In this document: positions 19,708 through 57,195 of the stretch, piece after piece
Layout: each line of letters starts with the position of its first letter
How positions within the stretch are numbered: position 1 is the stretch's first letter
Assembly (NCBI RefSeq): GCF_018141545.1
Contig: NZ_CP064356.1
Coordinates: 744,001-808,000, forward strand
Source: Miltoncostaea oceani
GTDB taxonomy: Bacteria > Actinomycetota > Thermoleophilia > Miltoncostaeales > Miltoncostaeaceae
DNA: 64,000 nt
Direction: 5' to 3'
Made by a program: the position numbers and the translations under genes
Notes under the pieces: model-generated
Told to the model about the DNA's origin: nothing
Seen by the model: only the letters and a program-made list of their open reading frames with translations
Databases searched by the model: none

Positions 19708-20970
19708 ATGCTCAAGACCATCCTGACGTCGCTCCGGTCCGCGGACCTCCGCAAGAAGCTCGCCTTCACGGCGTTCATCCTGCTGGTCTACCGGTTCGGC
19801 TCGTTCGTGCCCACGCCGGGCATCGACCTCGAGACCCTGCAGCAGGCGATCGACGAGCGCGGCAGCCGCCTGCTCGACTTCCTCAACCTGTTCGCCGGCG
19901 GCGCGCTGACCCGGTTCGCGGTCTTCGCGCTCGGGATCATGCCGTACATCACCGCGAGCATCATCCTGCAGCTCATGACGGTCGTGATCCCACGGCTCGA
20001 GGCGCTGCAGAAGGAGGGCGAGAGCGGCCAGCAGAAGATCACCCAGTACACGCGGTACTTCACCGTGGTGCTGGCCCTGCTGCAGTCGATGGCCTACGTC
20101 CTGTACTTCCGCTCGCAGGACGCGCTGCCCGACTTCACGATCGGCAAGTTCTACCTGATCGTCATCTCCGTGACGGCGGGCACCGTGCTGCTGATGTGGC
20201 TCGGCGAGCTGATCACCCAGCGCGGCGTCGGCAACGGCATCTCGCTGCTGATCTTCGCGAGCATCGTCGCCTCCGTGCCGGACGCGATCGACGGGTGGCT
20301 GACGCTCGGGCCGGTCTCCCAGGTGCTCATCGCGGCGATCGCCCTCGCGGTGGTCGTCGGCGTGGTCTTCATCAACGAGGGCCAGCGCCGCATCCCGATC
20401 CAGTACGCCAAGCGCGTCGTCGGGCGCCGCATGACCTCGGGTGGCACGACCTACATGCCGTTGCGCGTGAACATGGCGGGCGTGATCCCCGTGATCTTCG
20501 CCTCGTCGGTGGTCATCCTGCCGCCGACCCTGGCGGAGCTCGGTGGGCGCGGGTCGTTCTTCCAGTCCATCTCGGACTTCCTCGCGCCGGGCTCGTGGTA
20601 CTACATCATCTTCGAGGCGCTGCTCATCGTCCTGTTCACGTACTTCTACACCGCGGTGCAGTTCAACCCGGTGGAGCAGGCGGACAACCTCAAGAAGTAC
20701 GGCGGCTTCATCCCGGGCGTCCGCCCGGGCCGGCCGACGGCGGTGTACCTCGACCGCGTGCTCACCCGGCTCACCCTGCCCGGTGCGATCTACCTCGCGA
20801 TCATCGCGGAGCTGCCGAACATCGTCTTCCGCTACCTGCCGGACTCGAACGTGTTCTTCGGCGTCCTCGGGGGCACATCGATCCTGATCGTCGTGGGCGT
20901 CGCCCTCGACACCATGCGCCAGATGGAGGCACAGCTGATGATGCGCTCGTACGAAGGGTTCCTGAAATAG
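19708..20970 (+). CDS. secY: Protein translocase subunit SecY
   Basis: SecY is the channel of the Sec translocon in the cytoplasmic membrane. The 420-residue product has ten predicted membrane segments, from LAFTAFILLVYRFGSFVPTPGID at the start to the last helices near ILIVVGVALDTMRQMEAQL. The conserved cytoplasmic loop VVGRRMTSGGTTYMPLRVN and the plug-proximal region look normal. It ends MMRSYEGFLK with TAG at 20968-20970. That stop overlaps the apparent adk start (ATAG). Confidence 0.97.
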   Translation: MLKTILTSLRSADLRKKLAFTAFILLVYRFGSFVPTPGIDLETLQQAIDERGSRLLDFLNLFAGGALTRFAVFALGIMPYITASIILQLMTVVIPRLEALQKEGESGQQKITQYTRYFTVVLALLQSMAYVLYFRSQDALPDFTIGKFYLIVISVTAGTVLLMWLGELITQRGVGNGISLLIFASIVASVPDAIDGWLTLGPVSQVLIAAIALAVVVGVVFINEGQRRIPIQYAKRVVGRRMTSGGTTYMPLRVNMAGVIPVIFASSVVILPPTLAELGGRGSFFQSISDFLAPGSWYYIIFEALLIVLFTYFYTAVQFNPVEQADNLKKYGGFIPGVRPGRPTAVYLDRVLTRLTLPGAIYLAIIAELPNIVFRYLPDSNVFFGVLGGTSILIVVGVALDTMRQMEAQLMMRSYEGFLK

Positions 20971-55988: not shown

Positions 55989-56273
55989 GTGCCGACCTAC
56001 ATCCTCCTCAGCACCCTCAGCCCGCACGGCGTGGGAACGCTCAAGGCGAACCCGCAGCGCCTCCTCGAGGTCAACGCCGAGGTCGAGCAGATGGGCGCGA
56101 AGGTGGTCCAGCAGTGGGCGGTCCTCGGCCCCTACGACTTCGTGAACATCGTCGAGGCGCCGGACGAGAAGGTCATCGCCCGGGTGTCGGTCGAGCTGGC
56201 GGCGCGCGGGACGGCGCACTTCCAGACGCTCACCGCGATCCCCGTCGATGAGTTCCTCTCCCTCCTGAAGTGA
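55989..56273 (+). CDS. GYD-domain protein
   Basis: The 94-residue product is a single GYD domain: MPTYILLSTLSPHGVGTLKA, then VVQQWAVLGPYDFVNIVEAP with the GPYD motif, and the C-terminal LTAIPVDEFLSLL. The fold is a ferredoxin-like dimer of uncertain role. GTG start with AAGGAG upstream and a TACTCT box about 45 nt earlier. Its TGA overlaps the next small gene. Confidence 0.88.
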   Translation: MPTYILLSTLSPHGVGTLKANPQRLLEVNAEVEQMGAKVVQQWAVLGPYDFVNIVEAPDEKVIARVSVELAARGTAHFQTLTAIPVDEFLSLLK

Positions 56274-56491
56274 GCGCCGCCCGCCGCCGGGGGCGCTGGC
56301 TGCTCGCCGGGGGCGTCATCGGCGTGGCCCTGACGCCCGGCGCCCGCCGGGCCGGGCTCGGCCTGCGGGCACGGGTCACGCGGCTCGGTCGCTCGGCCGG
56401 CGACCCCGTCGCACCGTTCCGCGAGGCCCCCTGCTACGCCCGCGACCGCACCGTGCCGGACGCCCCCCGCACGGAGGAGGCGGCGCGATAG
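56270..56491 (+). CDS. Small membrane protein
   Basis: The 73-residue product has a basic start and one hydrophobic segment (RWLLAGGVIGVALTPGARRA), then a polar tail. GTG overlaps the GYD gene (GTGA), and its stop TAG overlaps the apparent ATA start of the following gene. It is plausible as a coupled small gene rather than a proven protein. Confidence 0.55.
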   Translation: MSAARRRGRWLLAGGVIGVALTPGARRAGLGLRARVTRLGRSAGDPVAPFREAPCYARDRTVPDAPRTEEAAR

Positions 56492-57195
56492 GCGCCACCT
56501 GGCGGGCCGAGGTGCTGGTGCCGACGCACCGCATCGTGTTCGCCCTCCGGGACGGGGAGGTCGTGGAGATGCGCGCCCCCTCGACCGTCGGCACGTTCGG
56601 CGCCTACCGCACGTTGCCGGATGCGGTCCACGGGATGATCGCGTGGCCGAACACCGTCCTGCTGAGCGGCCCGGAGACGGTGGTGGTCGACCCGGGCTAC
56701 GCCACCCAGGGCGACGTGCTCGAGGGGGCCCTCCGCGCCCGCGGCCTCGCCCCCGACGACGTGCGCACGGTCCTGATGACGCACCTGCACTCCGACCACG
56801 TCTCGGCCCTCCCCCAGCTCGGTGAGGTCGACCTGCACGTCCACGAGATCGAGCTGCGGGAGCCCCACGCCCACGCCGGACGCGGCGCCCGCGACCGCGC
56901 CCGCGGGCGGCCCATGACCGGTGAGGCCGGCGAGGTCCTGCCGGGGGTGCGGTGGATCCTGACCCCCGGGCACACCGAGGGGCACGTCGTCTTCCTCGTC
57001 GACACCGACGACGGGGTCACCGCGATCGCCGGTGACACCCTCGGCCCCGACCCCGCCTGGTTCGCCGCGATGGACCTCCCGGAGGGCTTCCCGCGACGCG
57101 ACGACCACCTCGCCGCGTTCCGCGCCATCCGCGCGCAGGACCCGGCGGTCGTGATCCCCGGCCACACGCCGCCCGTGCGGCTCGCCGGCGGGTGA
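56488..57195 (+). CDS. Metallo-beta-lactamase-fold hydrolase, apparent AUA start
   Basis: The fold shows HxHxDH in VLMTHLHSDHVSALPQ, the later His in LTPGHTEGHVVFLV, Asp in AIAGDTLGPDP and His in VIPGHTPPVRL, so two metal ions are likely. It is a general hydrolase (glyoxalase II, lactonase or Zn-dependent); the substrate is not clear. The first in-frame GTG (56512) would cut off the WRAEVLVPTHRIVFAL strand. ATA at 56488 gives MGATWRAEVLV, overlaps the previous TAG (ATAG), and has GGAGGAGG 7 nt upstream. Product 235 residues. Confidence 0.88.
   Translation: MGATWRAEVLVPTHRIVFALRDGEVVEMRAPSTVGTFGAYRTLPDAVHGMIAWPNTVLLSGPETVVVDPGYATQGDVLEGALRARGLAPDDVRTVLMTHLHSDHVSALPQLGEVDLHVHEIELREPHAHAGRGARDRARGRPMTGEAGEVLPGVRWILTPGHTEGHVVFLVDTDDGVTAIAGDTLGPDPAWFAAMDLPEGFPRRDDHLAAFRAIRAQDPAVVIPGHTPPVRLAGG

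Follow-up and report, generated by a model that had tools for sequence, protein, structure and literature searches.

Anatomy of the junction

The window, a stretch of 64,000 nucleotides of Miltoncostaea oceani (G000, C1:744001-808000; genome of 4.54 Mb in 3 contigs, rated 100% complete), holds three genes linked through 4-nt overlaps: a GYD-domain gene, a small gene and a metallo-beta-lactamase-fold hydrolase gene. The features at the two junctions are as follows.

55989..56273, + strand: GYD-domain gene, 94 aa, GTG start inferred (Pfam PF08734, E = 3.7e-28)
56270..56491, + strand: conserved small gene, 73 aa, motif W-x-x-A-G-G ... DPV-x-x-F-x-x-APCY, ending GCG CGA TAG
56473..56480, + strand: Shine-Dalgarno (SD) sequence GGAGGAGG, within the small gene, 7 nt 5' of ATA
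56488..56490, + strand: AUA, almost certainly the start codon of the metallo-beta-lactamase-fold gene (sequence, homologues, SD)
56489..56491, + strand: TAG stop of the 73-aa small gene, sharing TA with the AUA (AUAG, -4 nt overlap)
56488..57195, + strand: metallo-beta-lactamase-fold hydrolase, 235 aa (PF00753, E = 5e-21; HxHxDH motif; alignment; structural model)
56512..56514, + strand: GTG, first canonical codon in the hydrolase frame (residue 9), rejected as start

The TGA of the GYD-domain gene overlaps the GTG of the small gene as GTGA. At the second junction, two bases of the same strand belong to both the start and the stop, a -4 nt overlap that reads ATAG (56488-56491) instead of the usual NTGA with its canonical NTG start. 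The overlap of the ATA with the small-gene TAG, and an SD ending 7 nt before it (spacer cggcgcg), had been described in a sequence-only reading of the window and are borne out by the letters. With its AGGAGG core, this SD falls within the 5–9 nt spacing at which a strong SD is expected to compensate for a near-cognate start. The predicted RNA fold of the junction was only mildly more stable than shuffled sequences (z = -1.5), too little to show occlusion of the SD by RNA structure, and this idea was not retained.

From 56488 the hydrolase frame reads I-GATWRAEVLVPTHR, and an ORF listing of that frame contained no ATG, GTG or TTG between the in-frame upstream stop and the GTG at 56512, leaving a conserved N-terminus that no canonical start could yield. 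An in-frame CTG occurs upstream of the ATA, at about 56431, and the extension that it would open is not conserved. The small gene had no Pfam family match; it lies 5' of the hydrolase gene in most of the family genomes examined, with g9 lacking it.

The N-terminus of the hydrolase

Membership of the metallo-beta-lactamase superfamily was clear (PF00753, 75.9 bits against a cut-off of 22.7), with H99, H101, D103 and H104 of the HxHxDH motif conserved in the alignment. Among named subfamilies (AHL lactonase, B3 beta-lactamase, glyoxalase II), none scored above its curated NCBIfam cut-off, the best NCBIfam match being AidB at 50 bits against a cut-off of 360, and no viral relatives of the protein were found. 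The AlphaFold model (mean pLDDT, 91.1) places the first strand at residues 5–11, and within this segment and just beyond it W5, R6, E8, L10 and P12 are conserved well beyond the family.

The relatives of this genome are metagenome-assembled genomes of the Thermoleophilia/Miltoncostaeales, one of them labelled Miltoncostaea, and the hydrolase junction was read in 30 fetched relatives. The residues 5' of 56512 were conserved across the 30. It had been proposed from the sequence that a start at the ATA restores the first strand, WRAEVLV, and that the GTG at 56512 would remove it from a position more than 30 nt away from the SD. Both points stood: the residues are conserved and coincide with the model strand, and the GTG lies 31 nt past the SD at residue 9, inside the strand, so that beginning there would cut it. 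No examined homologue has its start at the position corresponding to 56512; they conserve the upstream residues and start further upstream.

These observations bear on the start called by an automatic gene finder, under which the true start would be GTG 56512 (227 residues) or GTG 56518 (225 residues). GTG is a canonical codon, the ORF listing begins at 56512, and GTG 56518 has a GAGGT 4 nt upstream that could yield a shorter second product; a GTG start would nevertheless delete the conserved W5–E8 and most of the first strand, and is considered very improbable. On the combined evidence of frame, homologues and SD, the hydrolase gene almost certainly starts at AUA.

The junction in related genomes

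Most hydrolase homologues start with ATG, GTG or TTG, the majority of these without an SD. An ATAG with an SD was found at the hydrolase junction in three species of two other genera, G007 (g5) and G016 and G005 (g3). Upstream of the ATA the frame is closed by a TGA at 11 codons in G005 and by a stop at 16 codons in G016, and neither genome has an ATG, GTG or TTG in between. The sister species of the same genus, G003, has ATGA at this junction, and G013 has GTAG, likewise preceded by a strong SD. An SD of 4–7 nt at a spacing of 5–8 nt is present at each of the five NTA-type hydrolase junctions. In the tree of hydrolase proteins, g3 groups with g5 in a single clade (support, 97/95) apart from g1, the branching of which is not fixed; judging from this tree, because the g3 and g5 clade is separate from g1, the history of the ATA at the hydrolase includes two or more origins or at least one loss.

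The ATG of G003 would fit a sequencing or assembly error in the present genome, the real codon being ATG. However, ATA and TAG share position 56490, as third and second base respectively, and with a G there the small gene would lose its stop and grow from 73 codons to 122, which nearly excludes a miscalled ATG. Against such an error also stand the ATAG in three further genomes at the hydrolase and in many at adk, and the quality of the 3-contig assembly, and the explanation is regarded as scarcely credible.

A further alternative is that ribosomes shift to the -1 frame where the small gene ends, producing a fusion of the small protein to the hydrolase with no initiation at the junction. The hydrolase does occupy the -1 frame with respect to the small gene, and this frame is open upstream for 222 nt, but a slippery heptamer is absent from the junction, the relatives in g10 encode separate proteins (the small-gene TAG is followed by a separate ATG, GTG or TTG), and a comparable fusion is implausible at secY-adk. 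A frameshift is therefore judged highly improbable.

ATA was rare as a codon, with 59 occurrences among 600,343 codons (~1 in 10,000) in the genes predicted in C1:1-2,040,000. A bare pattern of GGAGG-N4-10-ATAG is not rare (0.67 expected in the 64-kb window), and the weight of the case consequently rests on conservation. The earlier argument that two cases within the window make chance or sequencing error less likely gained from the comparison, given the ATAG in two other genera at the hydrolase and the recurrence of ATA at adk described below.

AUA at secY-adk and other probable near-cognate starts

The other case in the window lies at the end of secY, and further genes with ATA or without a canonical start were located elsewhere on C1.

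20967..20969, + strand: adk start codon AUA, overlapping the TAG of secY (AAATAG; sequence, family comparison)
C1:484272: GlpA-type dehydrogenase, credible ATA start, SD AAGGAGG at 7 nt (TIGR03377, 653 bits)
C1:19066: phosphatase-like gene, credible ATA start, weak Pfam support
C1:2027378-2027959, - strand: gmk (guanylate kinase), without a canonical start
C1:340161-341048: hemC, apparent GTC start in Miltoncostaea

The adk frame from ATA 20967 reads IARLILLGPPGAGKG. No canonical start was present within 300 nt upstream of this ATA, and downstream the first canonical codon is not reached until GTG 21048, after the P-loop; in adenylate-kinase profiles, residue 3 of the ATA-initiated protein aligns to model position 1 or 2. 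Among the 18 family-level genomes that yielded the adk locus, 17 start adk with an ATA overlapping the secY stop (ATAG in 15, ATAA in two g2 genomes), and the eighteenth, G019, has an ATG just 3' of the secY stop. The ATA overlap was absent from the adk loci read in other families of the class. secY ends on a variable codon whose final A is nonetheless kept, despite the rarity of A-ending codons (AAA, 0.015%; CGA, 0.28% of codons). The hydrolase junction had been described as exactly like that of secY-adk: the ATA/TAG overlap is shared, but the likeness is not exact, as the adk SD (only AAGG/GAAGGG) is weaker than that of the hydrolase. Overall, the secY-adk case for an AUA start is stronger than the hydrolase case.

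Within 2.04 Mb, four ATA starts were credible (adk, the hydrolase, the GlpA-type dehydrogenase and the phosphatase-like gene), and the ATAG with AAGGAGG at the GlpA-type gene is conserved in three Miltoncostaea species (also G001 and G002). The gmk, hemC and glmM genes were chosen for their missing canonical start in this genome, and their loci show the recurrence of near-cognate starts, not their frequency. In nine family genomes gmk overlaps an upstream TAG (GTAG in seven, ATAG in two) with no canonical alternative, and in some other families of the class it begins with ATC, ATT or ATA. For hemC, a canonical start is excluded in G003 by a TAG in the same frame, four codons before the apparent start. 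For glmM, the loci of which were fetched with an approximate probe and then re-aligned using the true protein, family members often have CTG only or nothing canonical, and nearly all outgroup loci have ATG. A census by codon of SD-preceded non-canonical starts, confined to genes with no ATG, GTG or TTG, proved too noisy to be used, owing to mispredicted coding starts, with CTG at CTGA overlaps standing out. CTG overlapping TGA was seen as the apparent start, with a GGAGG-type SD and no canonical alternative, in several genes (e.g., C1:1972712, 1104383 and 69720, the last on the - strand). In the region of guaA (C1:1065605), the interval from an in-frame TAA to the conserved VLVVDFGAQYSQ holds CTG, CTC and GTC and no ATG, GTG or TTG.

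Such starts raise the possibility of codon-blind reinitiation, in which whatever triplet overlaps the stop can act as the start and nothing is particular to AUA. GTAG occurs, without canonical alternatives, at the hydrolase of G013 and in seven family genomes at gmk, which agrees with this, as does the lack of canonical starts for hemC and glmM in several genomes. The distribution of SDs points the other way: in the start-proximal set, 4 of 12 ATAG overlaps (33%) had an SD of ≥5 nt in front of them, comparable to ATGA (66/283, 23%) and GTGA (98/478, 21%), compared to 4 of 96 for CTAG, GTAG and TTAG together (ATAG against these, Fisher p = 0.005), with GTAG and CTAG at only 3.6% and 2.6%. At adk, moreover, all 17 overlapping cases have A as the base preceding the shared stop, in spite of the rarity of AAA and CGA as codons. 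Codon-blind reinitiation is accordingly thought unlikely, if less so than the preceding alternatives.

Proposed mechanism and origin of the AUA

The reading favored here, and held to be very probable, is that AUA 56488 is the hydrolase start; it is likely used through SD-assisted coupled initiation, and the AUA is best accounted for as a by-product of stop-codon replacement. Ordinary fMet-tRNA(CAU) would initiate at the AUA by pairing two of three bases, and the poor third base would be offset by the strong SD and by termination-reinitiation, with a ribosome arriving directly from termination at the UAG. Hydrolase output may thus be modest and coupled to translation of the small protein. In a -4 nt overlap, AUG requires UGA, and UAA or UAG requires NUA; when the UGA of an AUGA overlap is replaced by UAA or UAG, AUG necessarily becomes AUA. 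Two transitions, AUGA to AUAA to AUAG, would suffice, and all three states occur in the family: ATGA at the G003 hydrolase, ATAA at the g2 adk, and ATAG.

A special initiation machinery was considered and set aside. The chromosomal initiator tRNA is ordinary (CAU loop, GGG/CCC stem) and the IF3 gene (C1:2574869-2575123) has a sequence that is ordinary by eye, so that no special machinery appears to be needed.

The genome also contains a second replicon, C2 (815,643 bp), which looks like a megaplasmid. Its tRNA genes, ~39 of them and clustered, amount to an almost complete second complement; among them is another initiator-like tRNA-Met (C2:760216-760289), in which one GC pair of the anticodon stem is altered. 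C2 further carries an additional copy of gmk (C2:273503), genes resembling those for a release factor and for ParB, and one encoding a Replic_Relax protein.

Relation to known systems and implications

Individual AUA starts and NTGA coupling are already known. In Staphylococcus aureus, ccpN, citZ and infC use AUA starts with strong, well-spaced SDs, as at the junction described here; the ccpN AUA is conserved in Bacillus subtilis, non-canonical S. aureus starts have extended SDs, and AUA and AUU reporters reach ~10–30% of AUG expression (PMC13009471). These genes are not described as sharing bases with an upstream stop, whereas here the AUA overlaps UAG and, at adk, does so as a family-conserved feature. 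The GTC start of Streptomyces sigR, which is repressed by IF3, is likewise a near-cognate start with the wrong third base, missed by gene finders in a GC-rich actinobacterium (PMC5472188). It differs in being GUC, in having no described UAG overlap and in its demonstrated control by IF3. The AUU/AUC starts of infC in Escherichia coli and Streptomyces, as cited in PMC5472188, resemble the present cases as near-cognate AUN starts on an important gene; in that cited account IF3, the product of infC, regulates its own gene, and no such loop is evident here. Overlapping gene pairs are translationally coupled, often in an SD-dependent manner (PMC6728339; reviewed in PMC12548453), and the NTGA class of -4 nt overlaps shares with this junction the four-base overlap, the SD within the upstream gene and the co-oriented neighbors. 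That class combines NTG with TGA; the combination of ATA with TAG places the start outside it. An AUA and UAG overlap conserved family-wide, as at adk, was not found in the open papers searched, which take in only a small part of the subscription journals.

A relaxed discrimination of the third start-codon base throughout the Miltoncostaeaceae, with AUA (adk, hydrolase, glpA), GUA (gmk), GUC (hemC) and CUG (glmM, others) as conserved starts, many at stop overlaps and including essential genes, is put forward tentatively, as a possibility that is presently the less probable view. Gene finders that allow only ATG, GTG and TTG would truncate or lose such genes, and the essential gene adk is likely misannotated across the family because its next canonical codon lies past the P-loop. 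The AUAG overlap would amount to a simple evolutionary rule, searchable in any genome, in which the choice of stop dictates the start codon, and these overlaps may offer a natural test bed for whether near-cognate starts are better tolerated by a terminating ribosome than in de novo initiation.
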